A DNA stretch of 64,000 nt, taken from assembly GCA_964017195.1 (NCBI GenBank), contig OZ024898.1, forward strand, positions 13,322,557 through 13,386,556, given 5' to 3'. Made by a program: the position numbers and the translations under genes. This stretch comes from Siderastrea radians. Taxonomy: Eukaryota; Cnidaria; Anthozoa; Scleractinia; Rhizangiidae. This document shows positions 9,779 to 54,079 of this stretch, in pieces (within the stretch, counting starts at the first letter, position 1; each line of letters starts with the position of its first letter). Under the pieces are notes generated by a model, which saw only the letters and a program-made list of their open reading frames with translations, was not told where the DNA came from and ran no database searches.

Positions 9779-10325
9779 TGTGACGTTATCCGTGAACAAA
9801 GACTCGGACTTATTCAAGGACTGCTTGTTTTTGCTTAATAGTAGCTTTGTTTTATTTTATTACGTGATCACCGAATATCCGGTTTTTGGCTAGCCGTACA
9901 AAGCTTTATTCATTTTTATTTCCTTTACATCAGAGGTATGCATTAGAATAGTTTTTCCCAAGCACGTTTATTCAGTTGTAAGGAGTCACTCTCACCGTAA
10001 GGAGCTATCGGAGTAATTACAACTGGAGGAGTTTTGGAGTCCTTTTAACCCGCGGAGTCAAGATCAGACGTAAGTGACGCTTGTAAATTTTGTAGTTTCT
10101 TTTTCTTTGTTTTATTTCACGGAGCAAAATTGTAGTTTTCGTTTCCTTTAACTTAGAAATCGCACATTTTCTCTTCTAGTTTTCACTGCAAGTGCTGTAA
10201 ATAGTCGGACTAGCCTGATTCTAATAAACGAGTTAAATCTTGCTGACCGCCTAGTACTTCACTGTGGTTGACCTGGCGAACTCCAGTGCCTAACGCCACG
10301 CGTCTACGACACTGGGAACGCGACA
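9779..10325 (+). repeat. Left LTR of element B
   Basis: 547 bp. By hand alignment it differs from the right LTR at about ten substitutions and three 2-bp indels, giving roughly 98% identity. An AATAAA-like signal (TAATAAACG, near 10223) lies near the 3' end, as expected for an LTR polyadenylation site. Confidence 0.95.
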
Positions 10326-10397
10326 GTGAAAAGTCTGATGACAAGTAAAAAGCACAGACTGAGGTAAGCCGTATCGTACTGTACAATAAGATCGCCG

Positions 10398-12014
10398 ATG
10401 GAGATCATGAGCGGCCAAGGAGTTCAGAAGCCAAACAAAGGAGAAGCCCCAGAACACCAGGAGATAACTGATTGCGATCCCGATAAGAGAACTAGAACTT
10501 TAAGTAGGAAAGCTTTGGAGAACGCTATCCAGGAGAGGCAACGTGAGTTACATTCTCAGTTACAAGTCGCTAAAAGATGTAATGCGATCCGCCGAACAGC
10601 TAAACGAAGCATTGGATTATCACGATGTTTTGCGTGACCTCGTTGACAAATCAGGGGAGTTCAAAATAAAATTAGAAGAATTAAGGAGTCTCTACCCGCA
10701 AGACAAAGAAAAACAAATTGGGGATCAAGAAGCCACCGTAGCTAGCGAGAGCCTAACTCTCGATCAAGCCTACTTACTTATAGACAAAATAAAGAGCAGA
10801 CAATCCAACAAATTGTTGGAGACGAGATCGCGTTTATCATCACTTGCGCCGAAGCAATGGATCGAAAGCATTGACACACACATCTACCACGAGCAGCGCA
10901 GCTAGGATGAAGGCTCTCGCCAAAGCGGCAGCAGCTCGAGAAAGCGCACAATACGAAAAACTTATCACAGAAAAGGAGCACGAACGCAAGCAACGCGAAG
11001 CAGAGATTGAGCGAAAATGCGAGGAAGAGCGCGCACAATACAAAAGACTTATCGCAGAAAAGGAGCACGAATGTAAGCAACGCGAAGCGGAGATTGAGCG
11101 AGAATGCGAGGAAGAGCACGCGCAACACGAAAAAGAACTTGAGATACTCGCGGCCAACAAAAAAGTCGCAATTGCGGATGCTAAACTTAAAGCCATTCAG
11201 GACGCTGTAGATGAAGAGGAGATCGATCAAGAGCTAGATTTAAAGGAGATCCCAAATGCTAAAAGCGAAGAGAGAACGTTTGCTTGGGTTCACTCGCCCG
11301 CACACCAGGAAATCCCCCAGAGAAAACCGACATTACGCATCGGAACACTCCACTCAAAGGAATGTCCGAAGTTCCAGGTGGGAATCCGCGCGCGACCGTG
11401 AACCAGCAGGAGACTGCAAACACCAAACACTCGTTTAGCCAGCCCTTTGTCACCTCAACCCCAATAAACTTAGCAGGAAGTCATTTATTAGAGACATTAA
11501 CGTCAGTAAACCAGCAAATAGTTGCCGGACTCGCGAGACAAAACCTGCCTAAATGCCACCCAGACATTTTCAGCGGAGACCCCACGCTTTTTCACCCATG
11601 GAAAACAGCGTTTAAAGGGATGATAAGGGATGTCGACGTGTCCCCTGTCCAGGAAATTAATTACCTGCAAAGTTTTACTAGCGGTGAGCCCCAAAAACTT
11701 GTTGACAGTTATCGTAAAAGGAAACATTACGACCCTAGCGCGCTATTGAAGAATCTTTGGGAGGAGTTAGGCGTTTTGGCAGCGCAGCGACAATTACCAA
11801 TGCATTAATGGAGCAAATGCACGCGCTCGCCGCATTTAGAGAAAGCGAAAATGACAAGCTGCAGGTATTTGCTGACCTTTGCGCCAACGTAGACAGCCAA
11901 ATATCCTGCCTGCCTGCCTGGTCTCGCGTGCCTCAATTTCCCGCATGCAACACAGCCAATTGCAGCGAGGCTACCACCGTTGCTTCACGTCAATTGGGAG
12001 AAAGAGATAGCTAA
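10398..12014 (+). pseudogene. gag: BEL/Pao Gag of element B, broken by frameshifts
   Basis: The reading frame starts at the ATG at 10398, 72 bp after the LTR. It then continues in successive frames near 10555, 10860, 11310 and 11757. The parts in order are an N-terminal segment, a very charged coiled coil (11000-11200), and the DUF1759-type core (FSGDPTLFHPW, then INYLQSFTSGEP). The core ends with a FGSAATITNA segment followed by MEQMHALAAF. At least four frame changes are needed to read it through. The coiled coil contains an 84-bp tandem duplication (28 residues each, around 10946-11114). Confidence 0.8.
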
Positions 12015-12189
12015 ATACTCGGAGAAGAATGGAGACACTTACCCTGGCTTTCACGTATTCTCTAACGTCATCCAAAAACATGCCAGGATAAAAAACAACC
12101 CAAACATTAATATGGGAGCCAAACTAGCCACATCTATGATCCCAACGCCGAGTCGCGGAGGACAGAACTGAAGGGCGCTTAAAACAAAC

Positions 12190-12960
12190 GCCGACCCCAA
12201 TGGCGCGAATGCCCCAACGAAGGAGGGAGAAAAAGAGACAAAGTTATGCCCATTCCACGGCCGAGAAGGGCACAGCCCAGAAGAGTTCAAGACTTTCGGT
12301 GCTAAGACGTTGGAGGAGAAAACTGAATGGATCCTTCAGGCCGGACTCTGCTATCGCTGTTTGTCCGAAGGTCACAGAGCCAAGGACTGTAAACAAACGA
12401 TTCAGTGCAGCATATGCAAAGACAGACGTCACACCGCTCTCCTTCATAGAGAGAGACCACAGAAACCTCAAGGTGGAGAAACAGTGGATAGGACATGCAC
12501 ATCTCTATGTGGAGCTATAAAGGGCGGCGTGTCATGCAGCAAGTTGGTACTGGTTGATGTAGTCAACAAGGAGGATCTGAATAGCATTTACCGAGTTTAC
12601 GCGATCGTTGACGAACAAAGTAACTCGTCGCTGATCAGCAGCAAGCTTGCTGATAAATTAGGAGCTGTCGGCCCGGAGGAGAAGTACTACCTAACTACAT
12701 GCGGCAGTGAAAAGGAGGCAAAGTATGGACGGCGCGTGACCGGTGTAATCTTGAAATCCTTGAGTGGAGCGAAGTCAGAACTACCTATACTCTTATTGAG
12801 TGTGATAATATCCTTCGCGATAAACGGGAGATTCCAACACCGGAGATGGCTAAGAGATTCCCTCACCTTCGGGACATCGCAAACGAAATCCCACCCCTTG
12901 ATCGAAACGCTGAAATTCACCTCCTTATCGGATGAGACACCCCGGAGTTGCTGAAAGTTA
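12190..12960 (+). pseudogene. Zinc knuckles and protease of element B
   Basis: Zinc-binding clusters GLCYRCLSEGHRAKDC and CSICKDRRHTALLH precede a retropepsin-like segment (AIVDEQSNSSLIS). The latter carries the Asp-x-x-Ser/Thr-like active-site context seen in BEL/Pao proteases. The frame shifts near 12790; the downstream part (LRDKREIPTPEMAKRFPHL, then HLLIG) is recovered in another frame. An in-frame stop interrupts HLLIG-DTPELL. It joins on to the reverse transcriptase region after 12960. Confidence 0.75.
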
Positions 12961-12997
12961 GAGAGTTCAGGAACGGACCGAAAGGAGCCCCTTCCAC

Positions 12998-15900
12998 GTG
13001 TGCGCCTGTCGTACCAGTCTCCTCGCGGTCGATTCTTGGGAGAAATCAACGGAGAAAAAACATTATGAATTTGTGCCGTGCCCCAACCGATTTAGAGTGC
13101 AAGAGAGTTTTCTGGAGAAAAAGCAAAACCTAACGAACGATGTGTTCATTACGAGTCGCGAAGATAATGAAGTGAGTCTGTCTTGCAAAGACCGAAAGTT
13201 CTTACAAATCATGGAGACTGAAATACACAAAAACGGAGAAGGTAACTGGGAGATGCCACTCCCCTTTCGCCGCAAGGATCCCAAAATGCCTAACAACTGG
13301 AGCCAAGCACTTAACCGCTTAAACAGCCTCATTCGCAGCCTAAAAAGAAAGCCACAGATGGCAAAAGATTACGTGGAGTTCATGCAGAAGATTATTGAAA
13401 AGGGGCACGCCTCTCCAGTGCCAACAAAAGAGCTAACAAAGTCTCAATCCGGCAAAGTGTGGTATCTTCCGCACTTCGGAGTTTATCACCCTAAGAAGCC
13501 AATGCAAATAAGAGTGGTGTTCGACTCATCAGCCGAACATGGTGGTGTATCGCTCAACAGAGAGCTACTATCAGGACCGGACCTCATGAACAGTCTGTTG
13601 GGAGTACTAATTTCGTTTTAGGAGGGAGACAACAGCGTCATGTGTGACATTGAGCAGATGTTTCATTCCTTTCAAGTCGATCCAATGCACAGAGATTTCT
13701 TACGTTTCCTCTGGTAAGAAGACAACACACCGGGAAAGCAGATAATCGAGTATCGAATGAACGTTCACCTCTTTGGTAACAGACCAAGCCCAGCTGTAGC
13801 TACGTTTGGCTTAAGAAAGACTGCAGCTGACGGCGAGGAGGAGTTTGGAGAGGAGGCCGCTGAATTCGTACACCGCAATTTCTATGTTGACGATGGCCTA
13901 GCATCACGGCCCACTGCCCAGCAAGCAATCGATCTTGTCACTTCGACTCAAGCGATGTTAGCGACTGCCAACCTTAGGCTTCACAAGGTAATGTCTAACA
14001 CAGTCGAGGTGATGGAGGCCTTCCCAACCGAAGATAGGGGTAAAGGAGTACGAGATCTGGATCTTCGCCACGACAGCCTGCCCGCACAGCTCTCGCTCGG
14101 AGTCTATTGGAACCTTGAGGAAGACACTTTCACCTTCAAGGTCTGCCTTCCCGATAAACCTTTCACGCGAAGAGGAGTACTATCAGTGGTCAACTCGATA
14201 TACGACCCATTAGGCCTGGCAGTACCAGTACTTTTGGAAGGGAAATTATTGCTGCAACAGCTAGTTCTTATGGGAAAGAAGAACAATACTGATACACCTC
14301 TAGGATGGGACGATCCCCTACCAGACACACTACTGTCGCAGTGGCAACGATGGAGAAACTCGTTACTGCATTTGGAGAAAGTTTCAGTCCCCCGCTGTTA
14401 CCACCCCGCTGATTTCGGCGAAATCGTCCGAAGGGAGATTCATGCGTTTTCAGACGCTAGCAAGGATGCAATAGGAGCTTCAGTATACCTGCGCCTATTT
14501 AACGAGAAGGATGAAATCTGCACAGCCTTGCTCTTCGGACAGTCTAAAGTGGCGCCCGTTCAGACTACGAGCATTCCTCGCCTGGAGTTGTGTGCCGCTG
14601 TCTTAGCTTCGCAAGCGGTTGCCAAGATCACAAAGGAGATAGATATGGAGATCCATGCAATCACCTTTTACACGGACTCGAAAGTCGTTCTCGGGTACAT
14701 CCAAAATGAGAGCCGGGGATTCTATGTTTACGTCGCTAACCGCGTCCAAATAATCCAGAGGATTTCTAGCCCCAGCCAGTGGAGGTACGTTGATACGAGC
14801 AAGAACCTTGCGGACCTAAGCACAGGTTGCTTGAACGCGCAAAATCTCGCAGGATCAGACTGGCTGACCGGACCGAGTTTCCTGAATACCCCACCGAGTA
14901 TGGCAGAGGAAGAACAGGAGAAGTTCCCGCTAAATGAAAATGACCCCGACGTGCACAAGGAAACAGTAAACCTGAAAATGCAAACAGACAGACGCCATGG
15001 CATTGGAGCGGAAAGGTTCCTACGCTTCTCGAGTCTTTATTCCCTACAACGTGCAATCGCAAATCTCGTTGTAGTTATCAAGGAGTTTAAACGGAGGAAG
15101 ACTAAAAACCAAGAGAAAAAGGAGTCAAAATCATGCAACGCCAAGAACACTCTCTTGCCGCGGCAAATTACAGCAAAGGAACTGCAGGAGGCCATGACAG
15201 TTATAATTCAAGCTGTACAGAGAGAAAGCTTTTCAGAGGAATTGAAGTTGAACCGGAGGCTACTGGAGAACAATGAGGAGATCAAGGGGAGGAAACGCGC
15301 CCGCAAGAGTTCCTCGCTATACCGCTTAGATCCCTTTTTTGATAGTAACAGCATTCTACGCGTCGGCGGCCGTCTACGACACGCGACCTTGGAGTACGGA
15401 GAAAAGCATCCTGTACTGTTACCAAAAAAACACCACATCGCTGACTTGGTAACATGTCACTACCATAGACAAGTCCACCATCAAGGTCGCCAGATTACAC
15501 ACGGTGCTATCCGCCAATCCGGATATTGGTTAATCGGAGGCCATAAAACTGTAGCAAAGGAACTGAGCAGGTGCGTGACTTGCAAAAAGCTGAGGGGACC
15601 AGTCCTAGAACAGCGCATGGCCGATTTACCAGCTGACAAGACAGAGGTCGCTCCGCCCTTTACAAACGTTGGTTTCGACGTTTTTGGCCCCTGGACGGTG
15701 CATACGCGGAAGACACGCAGAGGCACTACCAATTCTAAATGTTGGGAACTGGTATTCACATGCCTAACTAGTAGAGCGGTTCACATTGAAGTATTAGAGT
15801 CCATGGATACAAGTTCCTTTATCTGTGCTCTAAGGAGATTCTTTGCACTTCGCGGTCCTGCTTCCCTTCTCAGGTGCGACCGGGGAACCAATTTCATTGG

Positions 15901-16603
15901 AGGAAAATCGGAGCTGGAGGACGCCCTGAAAGAGATGGACCAGTGCAAGGTGGAGATTTACGTTAAAGATCAGGGGTGCGAGTGGATATTCAACCCACAT
16001 TGTGCCTCGCACTTTGGGGGCGCTTGGGAGCACCAAATAGGAACCATTTGACGCGTGCTGGACGCAATGTTTGCAGAGCTTGGCAGTGCACAACTTACCC
16101 ATGAAGTTCTCGTAACGCTCATGGCAGAGGTGTCTGCGATAGTCAACCCTCGCCCCATATCCACAATACCAATGGATACAGATGAGCCACAACCACTATC
16201 ACCCTCTATGCTCTTGATCCTGAAGACACGCCCACTCGGTCCACCACCTGGCCTCTTTGTTCCACCCGATGTTTACGCCCAATGCCGCTGGAGACGTGTC
16301 CAGTACCTCGCGGATCAATCCTGGATAAGATGGAGGTGCGAGTACTTACAGAACATACAGACCAGAACCAAGTGGGAGGAGCCAAAGAGAAATCTACACG
16401 CAGGAGACGTAGTTCTCGTTAAAGAAGAGGGAGCCTACAGAAACGACTGGCCCATGGGTAGAGTAACGGAAGCCATCAGGAGCGATGATGGTCAAGTCAG
16501 GAAATCCCAAGTGGAGATGTTCAGAGAAGGCAAGAAGAAAACATTCTTGCGACCAATTAAGGAGCTGATCCTACTCGTGCCTACAGCACCTGAGAGCAAG
16601 TGA
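12998..16603 (+). pseudogene. pol: BEL/Pao Pol of element B: RT, RNase H, integrase, C-terminal tail
   Basis: One reading frame runs from 12998 to 16603, interrupted by TAG at 13619-13621, TAA at 13715-13717 and TGA at 16049-16051. Domains in order: RT fingers (RVVFDSSAEHGG) and the RT catalytic motif YVDD near 13883; an RNase H segment (HAFSDASKDA, then FYTDSK); an integrase zinc-binding H-H-C-C region (HRQVHHQGR, then CVTCKKLRG); and the integrase core with the first Asp in NVGFDVFGPW, the second in RCDRGTNF and the Glu in GGAWEHQ. A DUF5641-like tail ends at PESK. The catalytic residues survive, so the three nonsense codons are the main damage. Confidence 0.92.
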
Positions 16604-16691
16604 GTCGCGTCCCTAGACGCAAACGTAACCCACTGACCAGAGTCGGAGATACAGTTACAGGAGCAAGGATTGAGCATCCTTGGGCAAGGAG

Positions 16692-17244
16692 TGTGACGTT
16701 ATCCGTGAACAAAGACTCTTGGACTTATTCAAGGACTGCTTGTTTTTGCTTAATAGTAGCTTTGTTTTATTTTATTACGTGATCACCGAATATCCGGTTT
16801 TTGGCTAGCCGTACAAAGCTTTATTCATTTTTATTTCCTTTACAAGTCAGAGAGGTATGCATTAGAATAGTTTTTCCCAAGCACGTTTATTCAGTTGTAA
16901 GGAGTCACTCTCACTGTAAGGAGCTATCAGAGTAATTACAACTGTAGGAGTTTTGGAGTCCTTTTAACCCGCGGAGTCAAGATCAGACGTAAGTCACGCT
17001 TGTAAATTTTGTAGTTTCTTTTTCTTTGTCTTATTTCACGGAGCAAAATTGTAGTTCTTGTTTCCTTTAACTTAGAAATCGCACATTTTCTCTTCTAGTT
17101 TTCACCCCAAGTGCTGTAAATAGTCGGACTAGCCTGATTCTAATAAACGAGTTAAATCTTGCTGACCGCCTAGTACTTCACTGTGGTTGACCTGGCGAAC
17201 TCCAGTGCCTAACACCACGCGTCTACGACACTGGGAACGCGACA
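16692..17244 (+). repeat. Right LTR of element B
   Basis: 553 bp, paired with the left LTR. It is followed at once by the TSD CTGGT and the resumed coding sequence of element A. Confidence 0.95.
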
Positions 17245-17249
17245 CTGGT

Positions 17250-28143: not shown

Positions 28144-30705
28144 TTAGTAGAAAGTCTTCCTTCCCTTGCCATATTCCAAAAAGTATATTAGTGCTTGAAA
28201 GTTCCTCCAGATCTTTTTTTTTTTACACCAACTAATGAAGTCCAGCCAGAAACTCTTTGCATAGGGACATGTAATAAATAAATGTTCAAGGGATTCGCTC
28301 TCTTGTTCACAGAATGTGCATAATGGTGAAGTTGTCAAACCTATTTTGTTAAGAAATGAGTTCGTGGATAAGTATCTGTTTAAGATTTTATACTGGAATT
28401 CCCGAGATTTTGTATCCATAAGAACCTTAAATGGCAATTCATATATTTCATGCCATTCCAAGCATGTACTTGAGAATTGATCCTTTTACTTCGCTTGTGC
28501 AGTTGGAGCGGTCTCATACTTTGATCGTATTTCCTTGTAAATATTTTTAGAAATAGCTTTATCGATTCGCACATGCTCGTTCTTTAAACGTAGTTTGATA
28601 TGATCATTTAAAACAAAAGCTTTCTCACTTTTGGGCCCAAAAAATATCAAAGAATTTCGCCAATGCGTCGGTAGGGCGTCATAAATTTGCATCAAATGAA
28701 ACACTTCCATAGGTGTGAAATTTGATTCACTCAGGTTTTGCTTGACAATTACTTCATTCTTGTCATTTACAAGATCTTCAAGCGTGACTATTCCTTTCTT
28801 AAATAAGCTGTAATGAAACACGGATTTTCCATCAATTAAAATGTGTTTGTTGTTCCATAATATTGTACTCGCTCTTGCAATGTTTTGAATGTTTGCTTCC
28901 ATTGCCGCGGAGTGTTCAGCGAAGATTTGCAAACACTGTTCATAAAATCTAGGCAGTTTGATAGGAAGTTTCTTAATGTCAAATCCACAACCTAGGACTA
29001 ATTTACCACCAACTTGTTTTAAATAATGCGAGAGGATTAATTTCCAGCTACTTTGCTGCGCCTCAACAAATTCTTTGCAGCACATGATTCGCTGTGTCTT
29101 AATGATTGATTCCAAATGTGGTGCCCTTAAGCCACCGTTTTCCACATCACATATCAAGGCTGAGCGTTTAACTTTACCCTTTCCCTTCCAAATAAAATTA
29201 AATAAAATTTTATTTGCTTCCTTGATGATGTCTTTGTGTACGTACACCAAGCCAGCCCTATACATGAAGATCGGAACAACAAATGTTTTTATGATTTGTA
29301 TTCGACCAAGCACTGTTAGGTTTCTCCAATTCCAAAACTGCAGCTTTTCTCTGATAGATTTCAAAATTTCATCAAAATTCAGTGTTTTCCAAAGGGCTTG
29401 ATTGTACGTAAAATGAACACCTAAAATCCTAATAGCCCGTTTAATAGTGATATTTCTGTCGGCGGAGACTGTTAGCATCGGCGACATTTGTTTGTTGTTT
29501 CCCAATAACATTACCTCTGTTTTTTGGTCATTGATTTTTAGCCCAGAGCATAAGGTGAAACTATCCACAGTTTCTAACAAGGCATTAAGAGAGGTATAAT
29601 TTCTCAGAAAAACTGTCAAGTCATCAGCAAAAATCTCTAAATTAATCTCCTCGTTATCCACTAGTATACCTTGAATCTCTTTGTTAAGACGAATGTTAAT
29701 AGCTAAGATTTCTAAACAGATGATGAATAAATATGGAGATAATGGATCACCTAGTCTGACACCTTTAAGAACTTTGAATGGGGCAGTTGTGAAACCATTG
29801 TTCATTACTGTACTGAGAATGTTTTTATAAAAAGTTTGTATCCAGCGAATCAAAGACGGGCCAAAGTTGAAAATAGAAAGCGCCTTGACAATGAAGATAC
29901 GATTAACGGAATCGAAAGCTTTTTGGAAATCTATACCTACTAATAATCCCTGGATTTTATTCCTTTCTGTATATTCTAAGATGTCATCTATTGTTCTCAC
30001 GGCATCAAGGATCGTTCTGCCCTTAACATAAGCGTTTTGATTGAAATGTATTATTTTAGGCAATACCTTCTGAAGTCTTGTGGCGATTGCCTTTGAGCCA
30101 ATTTTAGTGTCAACGTTAATCAACGAAATAGGTCTCCAATTACTTATGTGTCGTTTGTCTTTCCCTTTCTTTTCTATTAACTTAACGACGGCCTGTTTTT
30201 GAGTATTTGAAAGTTCACCAAAGTCATATGAATAATTAAGACAATCAACAAGTAAATTTCCTAAGGGATTCCAAAATGTTCTATAAAATTCAACGGTGAG
30301 ACCATCGTTACCGGGCGATTTGTTATTTTTGAACGACTGAAGGCAATCAAAGCACTCTCTAACCGACAGCTTTCCTTCACAAACACTTTTCATTTCATCA
30401 GTGAGTTTAAGAATTTCTGGTCTTTGCAAGAATGGATGATTTTCATCTACCACCTCTTCATTTGCCGCATACAAATCCGAGTAAAAATTTTCAATTTCCT
30501 TCATAATTTTCTTTGGATTTGTGGTGAGGGTGCCTTCATTAGTAAGCATCTTTCGCATACAACTCTTGTTCCCCCTGTAAGATTCAAGCCCTAAAAAATA
30601 CTTGTTGCTTTTCTCACCTTGTTCATACCAATTTGCTCTCGAACGAATTATTGCTCCTTTGGCAATGTAATCAAAATGCGAGTCATATTTCATTTTTAAG
30701 CATTC
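28144..30705 (-). pseudogene. LINE ORF2: reverse transcriptase and C-terminal zinc knuckle
   Basis: On the minus strand the frame enters from the Harbinger junction (ECLKMKYDSHFDY) and runs to a TAA at 28486-28488. It then continues in the same frame to 28144. Reverse transcriptase blocks in order: RSRANWYEQGEKSNKYFL, NNKSPGNDGLTVEF, NWRPISLINVD, GIDFQKAFDSVNR, GVRLGDPLSPYLF and the catalytic IFADD at about 29620-29631. The C-terminal Cys-x2-Cys...His...Cys motif (CTFCEQESESLEHLF, then C) lies beyond the in-frame stop. The order and motifs match L1/Tx1-like LINEs. The apparent N-terminus in the same open frame (30706-31077) is antisense Harbinger sequence, not LINE protein. Confidence 0.93.
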
Positions 30706-30919
30706 TAAAGCCCCATTTACACGGCAGAAAAAGTTTGGTACGGCTCGGATAAAAATGGTACGCGTACCAAAAAAAATAGCACTGATACCTCGTTTACACG
30801 TCTTTTTTTCTACCGTGCTGAGCGGTGTGAAATTATGTTTTGGTGCGGGTAAAAGGCTCAACATCTTGTCCAGCGTACACAAGTCTTTCCTAGTGCGCAT
30901 GCGGCTAAGTCTGTAAAAC

Positions 30920-32190
30920 ATGGCTGACGAAAAGTATTTGGAGTTTCTCCTTTCAAGAAGATCGCCCGTCTTCTCGCAGAAAATTCGGAAAACATCTTTT
31001 TTCTGTTCTTCTCTCCAAAAGAATAGAAGAAGGAGAAGATTCAAGTTGTTCATTTTGGCATCATTGCTTGATTGCAATTCTATTGAGCGACGTTGCTGGG
31101 TGCTGCCACGCAGTGATCGCTGGTTTCAGATTGTAGAAACAGCATTCACCGACAAGGAGTGGTATGACAATTTCCGTGTTTCTAAAGCAACATTCCAATT
31201 TATTGTCTCAGAGATTGAAGCCGAAATTGTTCGTAAGAATACTGCAATGCGTAAAGCCGTCTCCCCAAGAAAGAGGACAGCAATAACCCTCTATTACATG
31301 AGTTCCACTGCGGAATACAGAACAATAGCTAACTTGTTTGGTGTCTCAAAGTCGTTTGTTTGTCTTTGTATAAAAGACGTTTGTAAAGCTATAACAAAAA
31401 AACTAGGAAAAGGTTTCCTTACAGTACCAAAGGGGGACAATCTGAGTGAAGTCATGAGGATTTACAAAGAGAAATGGGGATTTCCTGCATGTGCAGGTGC
31501 TATCGATGGTACCCATATTCCCATACAAGCTCCTCTGGAAAATCGTACTGATTATATAAACAGGAAATCCTATCATAGTATAGTGATGCAGGCTCTGGTG
31601 GACTCAAAGTACCTATTTCGAGATGTCGTCATTGGTTGGCCAGGCAGCGTTCACGATGCCAGAGTGCTGTCTAACTCAAAACTTTATGATCGTGGATGCA
31701 AAGGCATCTTTTTGATCCTAACATCAAAGAAACAGTACTCGGTGTTGATATTGCTCCTTTAATTCTTGGCGACCCAGCCTACCCTCTCTTGGACTGGCTA
31801 ATGAAAGGTTATCCAGAAAACCAAAACACACCTAGCTGGCAAAGACACTTCAACTATCGTCTCAGCAGAGCTCGTATGACTGCTGAGGATACCTTTGGTA
31901 GATGGAAAGGACGTTTCCAACGTGTTCTTAAGCGTGTTGATATGTCTGTTGAATCCACATGCTACGTTGTGGCTGCTTCGTGCATACTCCATAACATCTG
32001 CGAATTAAGGAAGGATGCCTTTTTAGAAGAATGGCTTGAGGATATACAGAATGCTGTTGAGCAGCCTGAAGACATCCCATTAGGAATTCACGAAAGACAG
32101 ACTGAGAGAGATGCCGCCAACATTCGAGATGCTCTTGCACTATATTTCAGGACACCAGAAGGTCGGCACATTGGAAGTGGCTGTGAATAG
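30920..32190 (+). pseudogene. Harbinger transposase (DDE nuclease), one frameshift
   Basis: The ATG at 30920 opens a frame to 31762, and the protein continues in another frame from about 31700 to 32190, so one 1-nt lesion near 31700 separates the halves. The N-terminal part is basic and helical with a helix-turn-helix-like segment (TIANLFGVSKSFVCLCI). The catalytic core shows the first Asp in GAIDGTHIPI, the second in LGDPAYPLLDW and the Glu in AEDTFGRWKGRF, the standard HARBI1-type DDE order. The enzyme would act in the nucleus to cut and paste the element, with the Myb-like partner. All three catalytic residues are present; only the frameshift disables it. Confidence 0.92.
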
Positions 32191-43490: not shown

Positions 43491-43789
43491 ATAACCACAC
43501 GTTATGTCGGAGAAAGGGGAGTTTGGCTCGAACGAAAAAAGAAACAAAGGCGAGAATAGAAAAAAAGGCGTGGAGAGGAACGAGTGAAAAGAAGGAGAAG
43601 TGAACAAAAGACTGGAGTACCCGAAGTGAACCGCGAGTCCGAAACAGTCGTTCCGAATCACCCAAAACAAGAAGTCCATGAAGTACCTCACGAAGCCTGG
43701 CAAAATGATCGTAAACAAGACCAAGTACCACAAAACTTTTCTTTCAAAAGAGAAGGCGAATAAGTGAGTGGCGCCATAAAAAAAAGAAA

Positions 43790-44133
43790 GTGGACCCTAT
43801 CGCCGAAGTTCCTCTGGTAGCCATTTCTAAAGAGAAGAACACCAGTGAGGAACTGGCAAATATGATGAGGGGAAGGAAAATGGTAGCGCTTGCAAAATTC
43901 AAAAGACCAAACATTTCCGCGCAAAATCGATCAAAGAGGTTTTCCGAACGTGATTCCATCGTCACCACCGTGACTGAAAAAAGAAAGGAATTTAGCCCAA
44001 AGCAAAGGAACATCCATAAACGCGTGGTACGAGAAATTGAACGGTCCTTGCTCGTGAAAACCCGTAGCGAACCAATAGGTTCTGGAACATTTGGAAATTG
44101 TTTTCTTGTAGAGTATCGTGGAATTACAGCAGC
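43790..44133 (+). pseudogene. Protein kinase, N-terminal part up to the ATP-binding loop
   Basis: The open frame begins after a stop at 43712 without a convincing start; Met codons occur near 43862. It gives a basic N-terminal region followed by the glycine-rich loop of a protein kinase, IGSGTFGNCFLVEYRG. It stops at the insertion point of the 9.3-kb element. The remainder, beginning with the beta-3 lysine motif VKEM, lies at 53436. The last six bases (AGCAGC) are the TSD. No introns are visible in either half, so this may be a retrocopy or a single-exon gene. Confidence 0.75.
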
Positions 44134-44489
44134 TACGGTGGTTTCAAAGGGACATACATTTCTCCCACTTTTTGGGGGGCTTGCGACTTACTTGCGACTT
44201 ACTTGCGACTTAGCTGCGACTTACTTGCTACTTACTTGCGACTTACTTGCTACTTACTTGCGACTTACTTGCTACTTACTTGCGACTTAGCTGCGACTTA
44301 CTTGCTACTTACTTGCTACTTACTTGCGACTTACTTGCGACTTACTTGCGACTTACTTGCGACTTACTTGCTACTTACTTGCGACTTACTTGCGGGTTAA
44401 TGAACACCACGTGACAACGGAAGGCCTGGTTGCCTTGTCATAAAAATGGCTTCTCTAGACGAAGAACCGTATCAGGAGGTGGACCAGGT
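44134..44489 (+). repeat. Left long terminal inverted repeat
   Basis: Outer 40 bp, then the satellite (44180-44394), then about 95 bp (from TTAATGAACACC to GACCAGGT) that include the first coding exon of the HECT gene. The mirror copy is 53052-53429. Confidence 0.88.
44180..44394 (+). repeat. Left subterminal 11-bp satellite
   Basis: About 19-20 copies of TTGCGACTTAC with variants TTGCTACTTAC and TAGCTGCGACT. Because 11 is not divisible by 3, every frame reads as a repeating 11-residue peptide. The open frames across it are artefacts of the repeat. Confidence 0.95.
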
Positions 44490-47400
44490 ATTTTGTTCAT
44501 ATTTCCGTTGCAAATAGCAAACTTTCAAACTATTAGCTGAAAATTACATTTATTCTCTTCAGATTTTCCAGTTTTTAAAAGGCAAAAGGAACGTGGAAGC
44601 AAGTGTTTGCCAAACGTTTAAGGACGAAATGGTAAGCGATCGCAACTTGTTTATTCAAGTTTGCTCGGTGAATTTCGTGGTTGGGAATGTGGCGTACTGT
44701 CGTAATTAGCATTTTTCCTTGTTTTTTTAATATCTGTTCGTTTAATGTCGTTTCATTTCGTTTGATTTTGTATCGCAAAATGTTATATATTATAATCTTT
44801 TGTGGGACTAAAAGTGTATATAAACATACCAAAAGTTGCGCATGTATTGTCACGGCTCCAAGACTTCCAACCAAAGGCAAATTCGGCCTTTTATTTCCAA
44901 AATCACTCTCCCGGTGTTTCATATTAGGAGTCTTAAAATAATTTCGCTCTTATCAGTGCTTTTCTACGTGAGCAAAACAAACATTGCAGATAGCAGTGAT
45001 TGTCGACTAATTTGCATATCCCTCAGTGGTAGCATTCAGACAATTAAATAGGGTTTGCAGTGTTAAACATTTGATTTTATTCCTCCCAGCCATTCAAAAT
45101 TCTTTGATGATGCATTATAGTACTAAAGTGGATCACAAATGGTCACAAGAATGCCAGATACATAACCTGTCTGGGGTCTGTTTAAGATCGGTGCGTGCGT
45201 GACGCTCTCCCCCCCCTCCTCCCCCGGGGGGGAGCGGTTGATGGAATGAACCACCCGCTCGAAACATCAGCTTTCCAAATTCGCTACTGCAGTTAATTTT
45301 ACTTTGCCAGCTCATAGTTGATAATAAGTTAGTGTTTCACTTGCCAACCAATGCAGCATAACTGATAGGGGTCAATTCTATCATCCCTTCCCCAGGGCAT
45401 ACCCTGGCTTCGCAAAGACTCAGACACAAAGACTCAGACAGACTCAGACAGACTCAGACTGAGACTAATACTCTTGTGCTGCTCACTGGGTCCCCATAAA
45501 CTGAATGAATAAAAAAAAAAACATGGGCAACGGAAAAAAATCTATCCGAACAATATAAAAACGCGCTCTGCTGACTAACTTTTCCACCCCAACCCATTTG
45601 ACCATGTAATTGGTCCACATTGTTGGGGATTTATTAGTTTATTTTCAAAAAGTGAAATGCCTGAGGGTTTCCCTGTGGGCACAGATCAGGCTTCAGGAAT
45701 TGACTCATAAACTGACTACAAGGAATATTCTTACTAAGTGAATCAGCCATATTTAGATCGTCATATGAAAGAAAAAAAGTTAAGGAAATAAACGCATAAA
45801 AGCATAATGTATCATACTATGGAATAGAACCCCGGTCTCCAGCTGCTTACAAGGCAGATGTGATGACCACTACACCACAGATGAACCGTTCGTCACACAG
45901 ATCCTTATCCTTGTACTGTTGTTGAGAAAGGCTTCCAACTATCGTGTATAGCGATCCCTTACTTCCACAGATAAGGTGCTTCTCCATGTTTGTTCTGTTA
46001 AAGGTCTGCTCAAAACTTAACTCACAACTATTTTTGGGAAGTCTTGTGATCACAACAGTGACACCCTGAAGCTAGGACAGCATAGATGGCAGTTACTAAA
46101 TACTGCCCTGATGCAAAAAGCATCGTGCGAATTTGTTGAAATTCACATTATTTATTTATGGCAACAACATGAAACATTTGGGATACTTTAAAGAACGCTA
46201 TACTTGTGCGTTAAATTCGCACCCGAACGATCGCATCAATAAATTAAACTTCATGCTGTGTTCTTTTTGACTGCAGATGGATTTTACAGCTGTGAGAATG
46301 GCCACTGATAAGGACTTCCAAGCTCTTGGTCTGCAGCGAAGAGGTGACATACTTGCTCTACGATCATTCGCTTTAAGTGGCACAGATAAAGAAAAGGAAG
46401 GGCATAAAAGAAAACTCCTAGAGCTTTCAAAACAAGTCGGTTCCAAATCAACAAGAAGTAAGACAGCCACTAGCGACCCTACGAAGAAGTTCCAGTCATC
46501 AGAGGAAGACGACCCTCTACCAGTACGATGTAGTAAGAAAGTCCAAGTTGGCTGGCAACACTTTAACAATCAAGAAAACCGTTATGTTGGTGTCCGCATG
46601 GTGAAAGGAGGAGGCACCAGAGAGCTATCGATTCCACTAAATGCATCAACGAGAGAGGTTTTAGACCTAATGAAAGATGTGTTTTTTCCGGATGGGATAT
46701 CCACATTTGGTAGCACCAATGAAATGACATTAAAGTTAGGAAACTTTAAATGCGAGGAAGTGAACGAGGACTTCACTTTGGCAAAATACATTGCCAAGTA
46801 CAAATTAACGAAAGTTAGACTGTATATCTTAACGAGGCTCAGCGAAAGGCAAGAAAAGAAAAACGAAGTACACTATGTCAGCGACGACGACGACAGTGAT
46901 TTGTTAACACCTGCTTTTGGCGGGCAGGGCACATCTCCAGGTGACCACTCAGATTTGCTTGGCTCTTCGGAAGAGAGAAAATCTCTGAGGGAAAGTCAAG
47001 ACAAAGAGTATCTCGATTCTTTGGCAAACGACAAGGCAAAGGAAAGTAAGAAGCGAGAGGAGCTCCTCCAATGTCAAGAAGTAACTGCAAGACAAGAAAG
47101 TCTGCGTGCAGCTAGAGCTATGAGGGTGCCCGATGAGCCCGAAATGAGTGAGCCACTCGTTCAAGTGTCTGTGAGACACGTGACACTTGGTGTTCAAACG
47201 CGTAAATTTGCAAAGGATGATGAAGTAGGAACTGTGTATGACTGAGTTGGTTCCCTCAGCTTGACGCCTGAGCATTTTACTCTTTCTACGCCTGATGAGG
47301 CGAAGCTGAACCCTTCCTTGCCCATTGAAACTGTTGACCGCGTGATGATTTCGATGTCTACATGCGAGGGAAGTCCAGCTTTTCCAGATGAGATTGTTTG

Positions 47401-50090
47401 TTTTCAAGGTTTTGGTGCATCGTCTGAAAACAGTTTAAATTCCACCGTCCAATCTGAAGACACCATGTGGCCACTCTCCAGTGTTCCAGAGACGCCACCC
47501 CCTATTTTGATGGAAGAAGATCAAGTGTAAGTAGCACTTATTTGTGTGTGTCTTGGTCCACCTTTAGATCGTTACAGCATTGTCTGTTTCATAGCCCTAT
47601 GTCTTTTTTGGTTTGTTTTATAATCGTCTTTGCAAGGCATGATGGGGGCAGCAAGGCAGCTTTTGGTTTAGTAACAGTTTTTAAATCCTCATTTTTGTTC
47701 CATTTAGTGAAACGGAAGTAACCCTCGTTTCCGACAGTCACGAAAAACGCAAGCAACATGCACTGAACCAATTCCATCTGGATGCAAGGGACAGTCACGT
47801 GTTTAAGTGGTGATGGTGTCCTTGAAAGTACGATTGAAGGGGAAAACGATCAGAGGCATTTTATTAAAACCATCTTAATATAACTAGACAATACTGTCGA
47901 GTTACACGGTTGTAGCAGCAAACAGGACCGCCATTTCGAGCGATTATAAGTGTTCAGAGTAGGAGTTTCGGTTTATTACACTGTATATGAATCGGGATCG
48001 TTTTGGCAACGTTGGTGAAGGTCTTAGTGCCGTAAGTGTAAACGGAGAGCAAAAATGCATGGAAATGACCTAAATCAAAGTGGTTACAAAATGAAACTGC
48101 GTCTCTGAACGTTTTATAGGAGCAAACTCCAAACAAGCACATGATTATTTTTTAATTCCATATAAACCGTGGGTTTCAAATTTTATTTAATTTCAGGGAG
48201 GGAGTTAACGAAGACGAAACTCCAGAAAATGCTACTTTAACATCATCTGACTCGGGTATTTCCAGTGACTCACCCGGAAGGAGATTCAGACAGATTGTAA
48301 ACACCAGTCATAGTCCATCCACTGCGGAGGCTGAAAGCCAGGTAACTTCATTTGTACTCTTCTCCATGAACCTCCAGATAAAGGGACGAAAAGAAACAAG
48401 AACACCTTTCCCGTGTTAGTTTTTCATATATTATGGTTTGGAGCGATTTTACCACCCCTGACTATAAGTTCACAATGTACTTTCATCAACCATGTCTTAC
48501 GTGAGTGAAGATTACGGTGTTTGTTTATTGCCAACTTACCAATTACACGTGACACAGTATTAAGCCAGGAGAAAAAGAACTTCGTGTGCAAATTGATGCC
48601 TCTTTTTCTCATTTACACCCCTCAGTTAAGTGTCTGAAGAATAAATGCGATCGTTCATTTCGTGCAGGAGACTACGTTTGTGTTTGACCCGTTGCTTGTC
48701 GCACACGATACAATATCCCACACACTTACCTGCTACCCAACCACGAGTTTCTTTGTTGCCTTGAAACACTGAACAACGGTTACAAATAGAGCGGTTTCAT
48801 TTTAGGCAAAAATATTTTGTCGTGGAAAAGCAAGAATATCACATGTATTCATCCGGAACAATAGTGTAAACTTTCCACCATTGAGCGATTTTCCACTCAT
48901 TGCCGCATTCTTTCAGTGACAAAAGAGGGTTGAGTTTGCTTCGAATTTATCAAAAGTTAATAAAAGCCTAAATCCAGAAAATATACATAATAATTTTTCG
49001 TTTGTCGCAGGTTTTAAACGAGAAAAGAGAATACTGTTTACAGAAGTTGATTGAACATGGCGTGCGAAATGTGTGGATACATCGCGAGACGGTCATGCAG
49101 GACCTTTTGAACATTTACGAGTCCACGAGTGATATTGCAGAGAGCCAGGCTACCTTTTCTTTTTACGGGGAGGAGGGGATGGATTTCGACGGCATAAAGA
49201 GAGAAGCGTATTCCATCTTCTGGAAACAACTTCTGGATGAATATTTTGAAGGTACTACCACATTTGTGCCCCGCATTGGACCAGGCATCGAGGAGCCCAT
49301 GCTGAGGGCAGTGGGTCGTATAATCAGCCATCAGTACGTTCTCACCCGCGTATTTCCAATTCAAATAAATAAGGCGTTTATGGTCGCTATGCTTTGCGGC
49401 CGCCAAGCCCTAACCGATGAAGATCTCATCGAGTCCTTCTTGGCATATATATCAGAAAACGAGTCCGTGGAGATGAGAGAAATCATCGAAGAAACCAAAC
49501 AAGGAAAACTTACTGAGAAATCTTACGATTTCTTATTAGACTTTTTCAGCGACTACCAAGTGACAAAGCGACCATCGGTGACCAACCTACAAGCTACATT
49601 GGTGCAAGTGGCGAAAAACGAGTTGCTTTCGAAACCTGCAATGGCAATGGACATAATCAAAGAAGGACTTGTTGACGGAAACTACAAAGAACTGTGGCAA
49701 TGTAGTAAAGAAGACGTCTTAAAGCTTTATGACACGATGCGACTGACACCTTCACGAGTTATATCTATGCTTGTCGAGGACCCATCGGTTCATACGCACA
49801 AATCACGGCTCCAAGTCTTCTCGTATCTCAAAAGGTACATCAGGGGTCTCGGACGCGAAGAGCTCGGGCGATTCCTTCGTTATGTCACCGGCAGTCCCAT
49901 TCCGGTTGTGGAGAAGATACAAGTAGTGTTTCACGTCCACGAATTAGGTTCCTTGCCACACCCTCTGGCACACACCTGTTCCGCCGTATTAGATTTGCCT
50001 TCTTGCGGCTATGGAAGCTTCAATGACTTCAGGAGCCAAATGAACTCGCTCCTTCTCAACGAATTGTCCTGGAAGTTTACTTCATTGTGA
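44446..50090 (+). CDS. SAM-like/HECT-domain E3 ubiquitin ligase-like protein, transposon cargo
   Basis: Five exons, 44446-44487, 44563-44631, 46277-47526, 48197-48341 and 49011-50090, join in phase with canonical borders to about 861 codons. One in-frame TGA lies at 47243-47245. The N-terminus spans exons 1-3 and resembles a SAM-like helical domain (FLKGKRNVEASVCQTF, then DFQALGLQRRGDILALR). A segment with a GGGTREL motif and an ubiquitin-fold look follows, then a Lys/Glu-rich coiled coil and a serine/acid-rich linker. The last exon is HECT-like: FYGEEGMDFDGIKREA, FLRYVTGSPIPV and the catalytic-cysteine motif AHTCSAVLDLP (Cys codon 49977-49979). HECT enzymes take ubiquitin from an E2 as a thioester and pass it to substrates. 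It resembles the G2E3-like proteins annotated in invertebrates and fish. Exon 1 lies in the terminal repeat. Confidence 0.8.
45418..45466 (+). repeat. Short tandem repeat (CAGACT-rich)
   Basis: About 49 bp of GACTCAGACA-type units in the second intron of the HECT gene. Confidence 0.7.
45814..45886 (-). tRNA. Degenerate tRNA-Thr-like sequence (tRNA pseudogene or SINE head)
   Basis: On the minus strand: an A-box-like TGGTGTAGTGG, an anticodon arm CTGC-CTTGTAA-GCAG giving anticodon TGT (threonine), and a B-box-like GGTTCTATTCC. The acceptor and T stems do not pair well, so it is unlikely to be a working tRNA. It sits in the second intron of the HECT gene. Confidence 0.5.
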
Positions 50091-50697
50091 GCTGAAACTG
50101 GTTAAAGATGTCTTTAAACACTAAACAGGATGAAATCTGTCAGACAGTTTTTGTGGTGACTTTGTTATCGGTAGACAGAGGCTTCTTCATTTTGGAAGGA
50201 ACGTGCCTGTTTTGTACTGTTTTGTTGGATTACAACTAGATAGTATTAGTTGATGTTATGAAATGTTAGAAATCAGTACTATAAAATGTGACACGATATG
50301 TGTAAACGTCTACGGTTAAGCTTGTGAAAACTTATTCGCTGAATTTTCTAAATTAGTTTATTTTGAAACGCATGCAGTTAAAAGACTACACTTCCACCAT
50401 AGTAGTGGGTCTTCAGGGGTAAAAGCGTTTTTTGAAATTTGAAATGTTGAATTTACATAAAGGAAAGTGTAACGGGTGTTACTTGCTATACACACGTACA
50501 TTAGTTTAGGTTTGTGGACACACCTTCAGGAGTCCTTTGCAGAGGCATTGATGCTGTGGTGACTACTAACCACTTACGTTACAGTTGACTGAGATAAAGC
50601 TAGACTCCTCTACTGAGGCAGGCATTGCGACGTTTGTCAACCTGCCCCGTGAAAACGTTTATTTGCAAGTTGTGTAAGACAGTGTTGGTCCTCAAGA

Positions 50698-50703
50698 AAT
50701 AAA
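50698..50703 (+). promoter_or_regulatory. Possible polyadenylation signal of the HECT gene
   Basis: AATAAA about 610 bases after the stop codon at 50090, in otherwise empty 3' sequence. Confidence 0.4.
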
Positions 50704-51733
50704 GTTCTACAGATTTTTTGTATATGAATGACTTGCTTGATCCATGTATATTTTGTAATAAATCTTCACTGCCATAATATTAATAGTCACTCATTGCCGA
50801 GCTATGGATATGTTACGGGGGAAAAATTTTGCCCGGGTAATGAGTTGTAAATATACTAAAAAGGAAGGATAAACATCGCTGAAGGGGAGGAGAGTGGGAA
50901 ATTTTCGCAAAAAGTTCCCGCTAGCAAAGCTTCGCGAAAAGATGGAGTGAAATTGGAAAGCATGACTTAAATAGGTTAGCTACGATCCCCAAGGGCTCAC
51001 AATGTGCTAAATAGCCATAATAGGGTGATGGGAATGCTTATCCATAGCGCGGCATGAGTTCATGACTATTCCAGCAGTGAAGATAGTGGTTCGGTTCAAC
51101 TTTATCCTTGGTGCAAATTTGATTTTAATTTGTTCTTTTCTGTTATTGTATGATAATAAATACAAAACAAAGGAAAATGAAAAATGAATCAAGGATAAAA
51201 TTGAACTCAGTGCAACTTTTCCTTGGGTGGGGTGGCTGAGATGAGATGAATAATGGACCGATAGCGGCTGCCTGAGGCGCCTCCAAGTGCTGACGTCCGA
51301 TCTTATTCCCTTATTCTAATTGTAATTGTCCCTGAAAAGCCCCTATGGGAAGTGGTCAATAAAGTGTAAAGTGAAGTAACTACAACATATGTAATCAATA
51401 CATCTTACTTCTGAAACCGCCATTTACTGCAGTTACCTGGCGCTCGATCACGAAACAGCATAGACTGACAGAAAAGAACCGTATAAAATACAAGTAAAGA
51501 TGAACTAGATGAAATAAACAAACATATTTGAAAAGAGAATGTACACGCGGTTGAAACTCGAAGTTTAGAAGTCAAAACGCTATAAATAGAAATGAAGTCG
51601 TCTAGGAATCGACGTTTCTGTAACAAAATATAACATTACTCAGTGTAACACGAACTTATTTTGAATGTATTTTTTACCAAGAACAGATCAAATTCGAAGC
51701 AGATCTAGAGTTCATGTTCAGTAGGTATCTGAG
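50704..51733. other. Non-coding spacer between the two genes of the element
   Basis: No ORF is supported. A small imperfect inverted repeat (GTTCAACTTTATCCTTG / CAAGGATAAAATTGAAC) lies at 51093-51206. Sequence like an SINE/LINE tail (GGTCAATAAAGTGTAAAG) lies near 51354. Confidence 0.4.
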
Positions 51734-52990
51734 TTATAGATCATCTATGAAATCTAACAGATCGAAGTATAGTTGAAGAGCTTCCTCGGCAGTTGTGGCT
51801 AGTTCCAGTCCTTCATCCTCCATGATAATTTCGGCGAGTTCTCTAAAGTATGGGGAACATCCTTTCGCTTGTGGTCGCTCTGCACACATATCCTCTGCAA
51901 TTTCAATCTCATCCACGTCAACTGGAGTCACATAATCTTGAGCGTCGACAGACTCTGGTATAAAGTACATAACATCTGGCTTTCCAGCTGGGGACTCCAC
52001 GTTGCTAGATGGTCGAATTCTGTGAATATTCCACTCCTTTGCAGCTCTGTGTAGTTCGCTTTGTATGACATCCATGAAACAAAACTTCAGGCACTCGCAG
52101 TGTATGATGTTATCATCACAGTACAAACCAGAATCTCTCAGGTCTTTAAAAAACTCGATCCACCAGTCTGCGCAGCCCTGTCTCAGACGTCCCCACCATG
52201 CCTCTATCCTTTGGTTCGATGTAGATTTTCCGAACATAAAACTTTTATCACCCGAAAAATCGTCATTCATCGACCGGCGGAAGAAACGCTGAATGGCTGC
52301 CAAGTTTCCATTCTCGGTTCCCCGGTCTCCCCGTACAATGCGCGCCGTACCTCCCAACTGACGCACGTAGTCTAGAAAGTACTGAGCAATTATACGTGGG
52401 TCGTTGTTTGATGATGCTACTTCTAGCCAGACAATTCTTCGACTGAAACCATCAATTGCACCATGAATGCAGAATCCATATGGCTTCAGTTTATCGTACC
52501 CGTCAATATGCCATAAATAATTAGGCCCTTTACATCGGTACAATGTTCTTCGTAACCTATGTCGTGATCTATATTCCACTCCTTCGGGATCAAAGATCCT
52601 CAAAACATGACGAACGACTTCCCGCGTAGTAACAAGACCATACTGATTGATAAGTCTCTGATGCATCGCCCTATATCCAAGAAGGCTTCCACTACCTCTC
52701 AGTTCTTCCTCGACTGCTTGTACAACCTCATTAAGATCACTCGGATGGCGACGTCTTGTACATCCCAACTGCCTTAGTATTCTCTTCAAATGCCTTAGCG
52801 AGATGCGTATTCCGTGCACACTTACAAGAAATAATGCAATTTCCGATGCTGTAAGTCCAAGGTTAAAATAGTTTTCTATTATCTCCTCGCGAGTAAGTGC
52901 ATTGTTCCTTATTGCAGCAGAGTAATTTGGGAGTACTGCTGTTGAGGCAGTACAAATAACAACTAAAACGAAGATAGTAATAAACTTCAT
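51734..52990 (-). CDS. IS3EU-like DDE transposase (integrase core domain)
   Basis: A single intact frame of 418 codons on the minus strand. After a helix-turn-helix-like N-terminal region (LTREEIIENYFNLGLTASE, then RHLKRILRQLG) comes an integrase-type core. The first Asp is at residue 163 (LWHIDGYDKLKPYG), the second at about 222 (VRGDRGTENG) and the Glu at about 263 (SNQRIEAWWGR). This order and spacing fit IS3/retroviral-integrase-like transposases and a common cnidarian integrase-core family. The first 25 residues (MKFITIFVLVVICTAS) look like a signal peptide but are more likely intron sequence read through. The true N-terminus may be spliced from an exon in the right terminal repeat. The enzyme would recognise the element ends and produce the 6-bp duplication. 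Confidence 0.85.
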   Translation of the reverse strand: MKFITIFVLVVICTASTAVLPNYSAAIRNNALTREEIIENYFNLGLTASEIALFLVSVHGIRISLRHLKRILRQLGCTRRRHPSDLNEVVQAVEEELRGSGSLLGYRAMHQRLINQYGLVTTREVVRHVLRIFDPEGVEYRSRHRLRRTLYRCKGPNYLWHIDGYDKLKPYGFCIHGAIDGFSRRIVWLEVASSNNDPRIIAQYFLDYVRQLGGTARIVRGDRGTENGNLAAIQRFFRRSMNDDFSGDKSFMFGKSTSNQRIEAWWGRLRQGCADWWIEFFKDLRDSGLYCDDNIIHCECLKFCFMDVIQSELHRAAKEWNIHRIRPSSNVESPAGKPDVMYFIPESVDAQDYVTPVDVDEIEIAEDMCAERPQAKGCSPYFRELAEIIMEDEGLELATTAEEALQLYFDLLDFIDDL

Positions 52991-53051
52991 AGCTACAGAT
53001 CATAGGACAGTACAATATCCGGCGAAAGTTAACTTTGAAGAAGCCGTAGTC

Positions 53052-53429
53052 ACCTGGTCCACCTCCCGATGCGATTCTTCGTCTGGAGAAGCCGTTTTTA
53101 TGACGAGGCGACCAGGCCTTCCGTTGCCACGTGGTGTTCATTAAGTCGCAACTAAGGCGCAGCTAAGTCGCCGCTAAGTCGCAAGTAAGTCGCAAGTAAG
53201 TAGCAAGTAAGTCGCAAGTAAGTCGCAAGTAAGTCGCAAGTAAGTCGCAAGTAAGTCGCAAGTAAGTGGCAAGTAAGTCGCAAGTAAGTAGCAAGTAAGT
53301 CGCAAGTAAGTAGCAAGTAAGTCGCAAGTAAGTCGCAAGTAAGTCGCAAGTAAGTCGCAAGTAAGTCGCAAGTAAGTCGCAAGCCCTCAAAAAAGTGGGA
53401 GAAATGTATGTCCCTTTGAAACCACCGTA
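53052..53429 (-). repeat. Right long terminal inverted repeat
   Basis: Reverse-complement counterpart of 44134-44489. It contains the satellite (53150-53383) and, at 53054-53095 on the minus strand, a copy of the 42-bp first coding exon. That copy has ACG instead of ATG and an intact-looking GT donor. Confidence 0.88.
53150..53383 (-). repeat. Right subterminal 11-bp satellite
   Basis: About 21 copies of the same 11-bp unit in inverted orientation (AAGTAAGTCGC on the plus strand). Confidence 0.95.
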
Positions 53430-53435
53430 AGCAGC

Positions 53436-54079
53436 TGTCAAAGAAATGAATAGGCGAAACGATACACCAAAAGAAAGTGAGCGATGTAAGAAGGAGGTGC
53501 TCCATGAGGCAAACGTGCTACACAACCTTGGCGATCATGAAAACCTTCCATTTCTTTTGGGTATGTACCCTCAAAGAACCTTACTCGCTAGTTCTTCAGT
53601 TTCATGGTGCGGGGCAGGAGAGCCTGACTTTGTACAAGGCAATTAAGGAGAAATTCTTCGACAAGGTGGGAACTGTAAAGATCTTTGTGGACATTTGCAA
53701 AGCAGTAAACTATATCCATGGAAAAGGCTACTTACTTACACAGTGATTTAAAATCAAATAATGTTGTGCTTAAACGGAAAAAGGAGGGTTTTCATCCTAT
53801 GATTATTGACTTTGGCAAAAGCAAGCCAATAGAGAAGTCGGAGGCCCACAAACACTACACTGCGGCCGATTACATCGCGCCAGAAGTCAGGAATGGACGT
53901 TTTGAAACTACGGCGAGCGACCTATACTCCGTGGGCAAAATGCTTGAAAGGGCCATTCACGGGAGAAGCTTTCGAAATTTATTCAACACATTATCATGCA
54001 AGCGACACAGTCTTCCCACTGGTGCAGGCCTTCTGTACGTCAACTGATTATTCGACTAAACGGTGTAATTAAAGATTAA
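53436..54079 (+). pseudogene. Protein kinase, catalytic part after the insertion
   Basis: Continues the kinase from its beta-3 lysine (VKEMNRRND). The alpha-C Glu region is EVLHEANVLHNLG. A frame change near 53562 leads to YSLVLQFHG. A 4-bp CTTA duplication near 53733 shifts the frame before the catalytic loop, which reads LHSDLKSNN (His-Ser-Asp rather than His-Arg-Asp). The DFG motif is IIDFGKSKP and the APE motif is YIAPEVRNG. A third shift near 53990 precedes the C-terminal WCRPSVRQLIIRL segment, ending at a TAA at 54077-54079. It is a dead copy independent of the transposon. The specific kinase family is not recognised. Confidence 0.82.

Follow-up and report, generated by a model that had tools for sequence, protein, structure and literature searches.

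The 64-kb stretch of Siderastrea radians DNA analysed here (the window; C12:13322557-13386556 in an 805-Mb assembly) carries, at positions 44134-53429, a 9,296-bp unit that is almost certainly a cut-and-paste transposon of the IS3EU superfamily made of two genes, a transposase and a HECT ubiquitin ligase (E3). Both genes run inward, each from its own long terminal inverted repeat (TIR), and transposase and HECT gene are copied together. As judged from sequence and structure models, intact copies quite probably encode an active ligase. The transposase-HECT pair was found in many distant relatives within the genome, so that the HECT gene looks like a standing partner and not a chance passenger; 'cargo' is too weak a term for a gene met again and again in families whose transposases share 40-60% identity with that of the window.

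The element ends in TACGG..CCGTA, and its outermost 40 bp form identical inverted repeats, each occurring once within the window. A 6-bp target-site duplication (TSD), AGCAGC, was read on the left (44128-44133) and on the right (53430-53435). The 6-bp TSD, TAYGG..CCRTA termini with a TIR longer than 30 bp and an integrase-type DDE transposase are the features by which IS3EU elements are recognized. When the flanks were fused with a single TSD copy, the frame read through the junction (...GSGTFGNCFLVEYRGITAAVKEMN...) and was kinase-like. The identical ends and the in-frame junction bear out the borders and the TSD given in the preliminary description of this DNA. The kinase-like frame split by the insertion has its 5' part at 43715-44133 (plus strand, outside the element) and its continuation, recognized by kinase match in more than one frame, at 53436-54047 (plus strand, also outside). 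The fused frame meets a stop about 70 codons past the junction and the kinase match resumes downstream in a different frame, suggesting that the interrupted gene is spliced or had already decayed there. The insertion point adjoins VKEMN, presumably the motif of the ATP-binding lysine.

The transposase is a 421-codon open frame (51734-52990, minus strand) that matched Pfam rva_4 (E 1.1e-33) and, below the cut-off of that family, rve (E 1.8e-4). Among 59 chosen transposase sequences E263 is invariant and D163 and D222 are present in at least 90%, and the top PDB matches of the structure model were Mu, Tn7-like and retroviral integrase complexes, that is, an integrase/MuA-type fold. The HECT gene comprises five exons on the plus strand (44446-50090), convergent with the transposase, with GT/AG at all four introns, and the model is matched end to end by a Desmophyllum pertusum protein of 846 aa (76% identity). 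Exon 2 (44563-44631) encodes a weak SAM-like region; exon 3 (46277-47526) encodes the end of this region, a ubiquitin-like (UBL-like) region, a long helix and a UBX-like region, with domains assigned from the relative P0001; exon 4 lies at 48197-48341; and exon 5 (49011-50090) encodes the HECT domain, with the active-site Cys codon at 49977-49979. The HECT domain scored 33.1 bits in Pfam against a cut-off of 23.9 (E 6.2e-8), its relative P0001 has a HECT fold (a comparison covering the HECT part only), and the C-lobe active-site Cys is present as HTC in the window and as a Cys motif in 9/9 other loci listed plus C10. An integrase-type transposase together with a spliced HECT-like gene, as initially proposed, was thus confirmed. 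The SAM half of the proposed SAM/HECT label fared less well: no Pfam SAM match was obtained in P0001, two of five weak PDB matches were named SAM proteins (best E 0.092), and the UBL-like and UBX-like regions lie between the two. The UBL-like label is drawn solely from the structure model, and comparison of this region with the PDB gave nothing significant. The closest named relatives came from Desmophyllum, Montipora and Stylophora, which are stony corals; a more distant HECT relative is held by the fish Cyprinodon.

The first exon of the HECT gene, from ATG to donor (44446-44487, plus strand; gene model and relative P0001), is built into the TIRs. The left TIR (44134-44489, plus strand, 356 bp) and the right TIR (53052-53429, minus strand, 378 bp) are about 88% identical by self-comparison, and their homology spans exon 1 and halts at its splice donor GT. 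The bulk of both consists of 11-bp tandem units, CTTGCGACTTA, which repeat analysis resolved into subterminal arrays of 19.5 copies on the left (44180-44394, plus strand) and 22 copies on the right (53142-53383, minus strand). The mirror of exon 1 in the right TIR (53054-53093, minus strand) is 90% identical to it, with ACG in the start-codon position. The same mirror was found at 90% in all six full-length copies of the element, and at 90 and 87.5% in two copies without a left end. Of ten miniature inverted-repeat transposable elements (MITEs) read, eight have one arm whose match ends at query base 354-357, which is the donor; in the other two (L016 and L025) the arm match extends past it, to 371 and 405. 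We infer that a duplicated promoter and leader exon may serve both genes; maize MuDR is an analogue.

Transposase copies at least 99% identical to that of the window numbered eight, every frame open, and all eight are accompanied by a convergent HECT exon 5. Both ends are present in six of them (9.3-10.2 kb long), the other two being those that lack the left end. An exact 6-bp TSD was found in three of the six full-length copies; C9 has none, and C6 and C14 no exact one. MITEs consisting of TIRs only coexist with the full elements, and an exact TSD flanks 7/10 of the short two-ended copies read (L019 and L023 have none). Exon 3 of the HECT gene was fully readable in seven copies, and the window copy alone carries an in-frame stop, at 47243-47245 (plus strand) inside the UBX-like region; judged from sequence, this copy is likely to be HECT-defective. 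Differences among the close copies are few, which indicates that the family amplified recently. Separately, six places at C12:34.00-34.21 Mb match the left TIR at 79-83%, and a convergent transposase-HECT pair (34.048-34.051 Mb) lies 3.5 kb away from one of these; the places may belong to a related family with common ends.

Across the genome, HECT exon 5 as a query returned 114 matches at 105 places (113 of 190 candidates scored) and the transposase 102 matches at 98 places (99 of 1075 candidates scored). Pairings within 12 kb amounted to 38, against 0.32 expected: 36 are convergent and two are cross-pairings of neighbouring C14 elements. The convergent pairs take in 36/98 transposase and 36/105 HECT places, 28 of them beyond the close copies, and pairing reaches down to 42% transposase identity. 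Sorted by identity to the window's transposase, 8/8 places at 90% or more are paired, 23/35 at 50-90%, 0/13 at 45-50% and 5/42 below 45%. With the HECT of L052 as a further query, 127 matches were obtained. Scans of viral contigs and genome contigs with the transposase, and a scan with the TIR pattern, returned no locus. The idea that only this element captured a HECT gene of the host, as a one-off event, was ruled out by the 8/8 close copies and the 28 further convergent pairs and retains practically no probability. The claim that the HECT gene moves with the element is supported: of the two conditions named in the preliminary description as refuting it, copies free of HECT and HECT exons standing apart from the element ends, neither was borne out, the close copies all having the HECT exon and HECT places being convergent with IS3EU transposases 36 times.

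Five of the places counted as unpaired were opened (L054, L055, L056, L057 and L058). The sole unpaired HECT place among them, L054, did hold a transposase: an 816-aa HECT frame, adjoining a TACGGTGGCTTCAAAGGGACAT end, lies opposite a transposase broken into several pieces. L055:4000-5985 and L057:3292-5278 belong to one IS3EU family, in which the convergent gene is 662 aa long (split into two overlapping pieces in L057). This gene had no Pfam HECT match; all six of its PDB matches were HECT ligases (best E 0.2; hhalign probability 7), and it is tentatively regarded as HECT-like. L056:2-2256 and L058:6937-8789 belong to another IS3EU family, whose convergent gene encodes a UBL-like module followed by a protein kinase. 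In L056 the module matched P0001 at E 3e-13 and the kinase matched Pfam at E 2.6e-49; the L058 copy is decayed. A kinase behind the UBL-like module in place of HECT suggests that the slot of the second gene is kept and that its effector can change. IS3EU elements of this genome often consist of two genes, of which the modifier is exchangeable. Terminal-motif searches in L053-L058 yielded no confirmed end pair; L054 showed a left end only, its right side lying at the edge of the stretch. The kinase-like gene split by the window element was considered as close kin of the second gene of L056 and rejected, the L056 kinase matching the window flanks at E 6.9 at best.

These observations are probably best explained as a whole by a two-gene IS3EU element whose HECT modifier docks through the UBL-like module. 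The duplicated TIR promoter would drive transposase and HECT gene, so that both products are made together; the UBL-like module would bind an unvarying partner, which the enzyme at the C-terminus would then modify, with ubiquitin here and with phosphate in the L056/L058 family. Several results weigh against this explanation. With 99 of 1075 transposase candidates scored, 62/98 transposase and 69/105 HECT places have no partner inside 12 kb, and two of the 36 pairs are spaced 8.4 and 9.5 kb apart. Variable codons gave no clear sign of purifying selection: 2 synonymous and 12 nonsynonymous (including the stop) in exon 3 of seven copies, and 2 synonymous and 16 nonsynonymous in the transposase of eight copies; exon 5 (eight copies) had 4 synonymous and 2 nonsynonymous, and the neutral expectation is about 25% synonymous, at few sites. 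The UBX-like region misses the Pfam UBX cut-off of 21 bits, the highest score being 19.7 bits in the relative P0004; two of four cut-out pieces matched Pfam UBX (best E 2.3e-4) and FAF1 was matched by profile at E 2.2e-10. The TFPR loop of FAF1 contacts p97, and the residues facing it fall in a gap in the UBX-like region. The low score and the gap make p97 binding doubtful, and p97 recruitment through UBX was rejected as the leading mechanism for want of these residues.

The HECT gene could also be a neutral hitchhiker, swapped among IS3EU families without helping them. The preliminary description had proposed comparing the divergence of the two genes, and the outcome was divided. Over ten loci (C10, with its broken HECT frame, left out) HECT and transposase distances correlated strongly (r 0.887; 0/20,000 permutations reached it), members of a family pairing together. 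This value was due to near-identical family members; after collapse to six families, with rounded identities, r was -0.03 (reached by 330/720 permutations), a further point against a standing partnership, and strict deep co-divergence was rejected. In C4, for example, HECT is closest to that of C3b (43%) and the transposase to that of C3a (61%). The mismatch between families fits exchange of the second gene, or saturation; such exchange is described for fungal TET genes in the excerpted text of PMC12730594. Together with the neutral-looking polymorphism at few sites, and with a window copy that either moved despite a broken HECT gene or had it broken later, the disagreement of distances is what a hitchhiker would leave. 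Many HECT frames, however, stay open and keep the Cys next to transposases that share 40-60% identity with the window's, the orientation is the same in 36 pairs and exon 1 is built into both TIRs, and we regard passive carriage as improbable.

For the partner modified by a docked HECT or kinase enzyme, our tentative choice is a host factor restraining the element, the likeliest of the candidates at somewhat under even chances. It is favoured over self-regulation because a kinase can occupy the place of HECT. Self-regulation, also quite possible, would mean that the E3 targets the transposase or strand-transfer complex of its own element, for turnover, disassembly or copy-number control. The bacterial unfoldase ClpX acts on the Mu transpososome and offers a model for an E3 acting on its own strand-transfer complex. 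The resemblance of the transposase model to Mu, Tn7-like and retroviral integrase complexes is in line with this target, as is a second gene facing the transposase in 36/36 same-element pairs; the residues missing opposite the FAF1 TFPR speak against it, and the kinase families L056 and L058 would need other chemistry for the same task.

The transposase N-terminus raises a further question. At 52937-52990 (minus strand) it reads MKFITIFVLVVICTASTA and resembles a signal peptide in the alignment of relatives. The best 120 of 1397 relatives from the protein search were taken, leaving 86 at 90% redundancy; 75 extend far enough upstream (11 begin later) and 73 have a readable cut site. Within this set a strongly hydrophobic decamer was found at the N-terminus in 70/75, compared with 53/3750 control segments; the -1 residue is A/G/S/C/T in 68/73 (0.24 in the remainder of the proteins), the -3 residue is A/G/S/C/T/V/I/L in 69/73 (0.46 in the remainder), and the hydrophobic stretch is 16-25 residues long in 54/73. 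In 59 rows selected because their N-terminus is complete, the segment shows a median identity of 17% to the window's, and the rest of the protein 60%. Most of the relatives read thus begin in a signal-peptide-like manner, though the residues themselves are not conserved. No signal peptide of an IS3EU transposase was found in the literature searched, as judged by titles.

The same stretch might instead be the translated T-rich end of an intron. This part of the window is rich in T and contains AG sites, and in L056 and L058 no in-frame Met precedes the hydrophobic stretch. The fitting residues at -1 and -3 and the regular length argue for protein, and Cys at -1 in 6/73 is compatible with signal peptidase but, in that phase, not with an AG acceptor. 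Since L055 and L057 transposases lack a signal-like start and L056 and L058 lack the Met, the intron explanation is an unlikely but serious one, and the following proposal is speculative: animal IS3EU would have two components, an integrase-type transposase with a cleavable endoplasmic reticulum signal and a convergent modifier (constant UBL-like dock, swapped HECT or kinase effector) that disarms a host check or releases the transposase from the secretory pathway. If this were true, transposition would require a ubiquitin or phosphate mark set by an enzyme of the transposon itself. In the relative P0113 the transposase frame opens on repeats of NLRSQLT, which may stem from translation through a subterminal tandem array of its own.

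Elsewhere in the window, a BEL/Pao-type long terminal repeat retrotransposon (9779-17247) holds a Pao peptidase and an rve domain between direct repeats at 9779-10328 and 16692-17247 (97% identity), and a reverse transcriptase domain is encoded in an 879-codon frame at 28489-31125 (minus strand).

If a transposase is regularly accompanied by a ubiquitin ligase, and in one family by a kinase, transposons would make use of host post-translational control much as viruses do. The two-gene IS3EU element offers a testable answer on the role of second genes in eukaryotic transposons, and the group would readily explain where some, at least, of the HECT-like places in the genome come from. The literature searched, which did not extend to Repbase Reports, yielded no IS3EU-HECT pair, and for HECT in any transposon the listings of that search showed nothing relevant. 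Like the maize element MuDR, in which two convergent genes have promoters in long TIRs and the role of the second gene is debated, the coral element combines a convergent gene pair with long TIRs; MuDR differs in its Mutator transposase, its 9-bp TSD and a MURB protein of no known enzyme class. Multi-gene IS3EU elements are already known in fungi. With the IS3EU/GingerRoot superfamily, as presented in the excerpted text of PMC10045372, the window element has in common TA..TA termini, the 6-bp TSD and an integrase-like DDE transposase; the excerpt mentions no convergent HECT or kinase gene, and the main text contains neither 'hect' nor 'ubiquitin'. Styx of Zymoseptoria (excerpted text of PMC10853768) is IS3EU-related and, as here, has several open reading frames and recent amplification, but its extra frames are GATA, CCHC and DUF3577, the word 'ubiquitin' being absent from the excerpt. 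The TET+ IS3EU elements of rust fungi (excerpted text of PMC12730594) have TAYGG..CCRTA termini, a 6-bp TSD and a TIR longer than 30 bp; in the same excerpt 'hect' is absent and no shared UBL-like module was found. They carry TET/JBP and an alpha-kinase where the coral element has HECT, and their alpha-kinase modifier stands opposite the transposase as the coral enzyme does. Among the PDB matches listed, no solved protein had the order SAM-like, UBL-like, helix, UBX-like, HECT. FAF1 shares the helix and UBX-like region with the element's protein, though the TFPR counterpart is missing in the latter, and the HECT ligases HUWE1, UBR5 and NEDD4 share with it the HECT fold and the active-site Cys.
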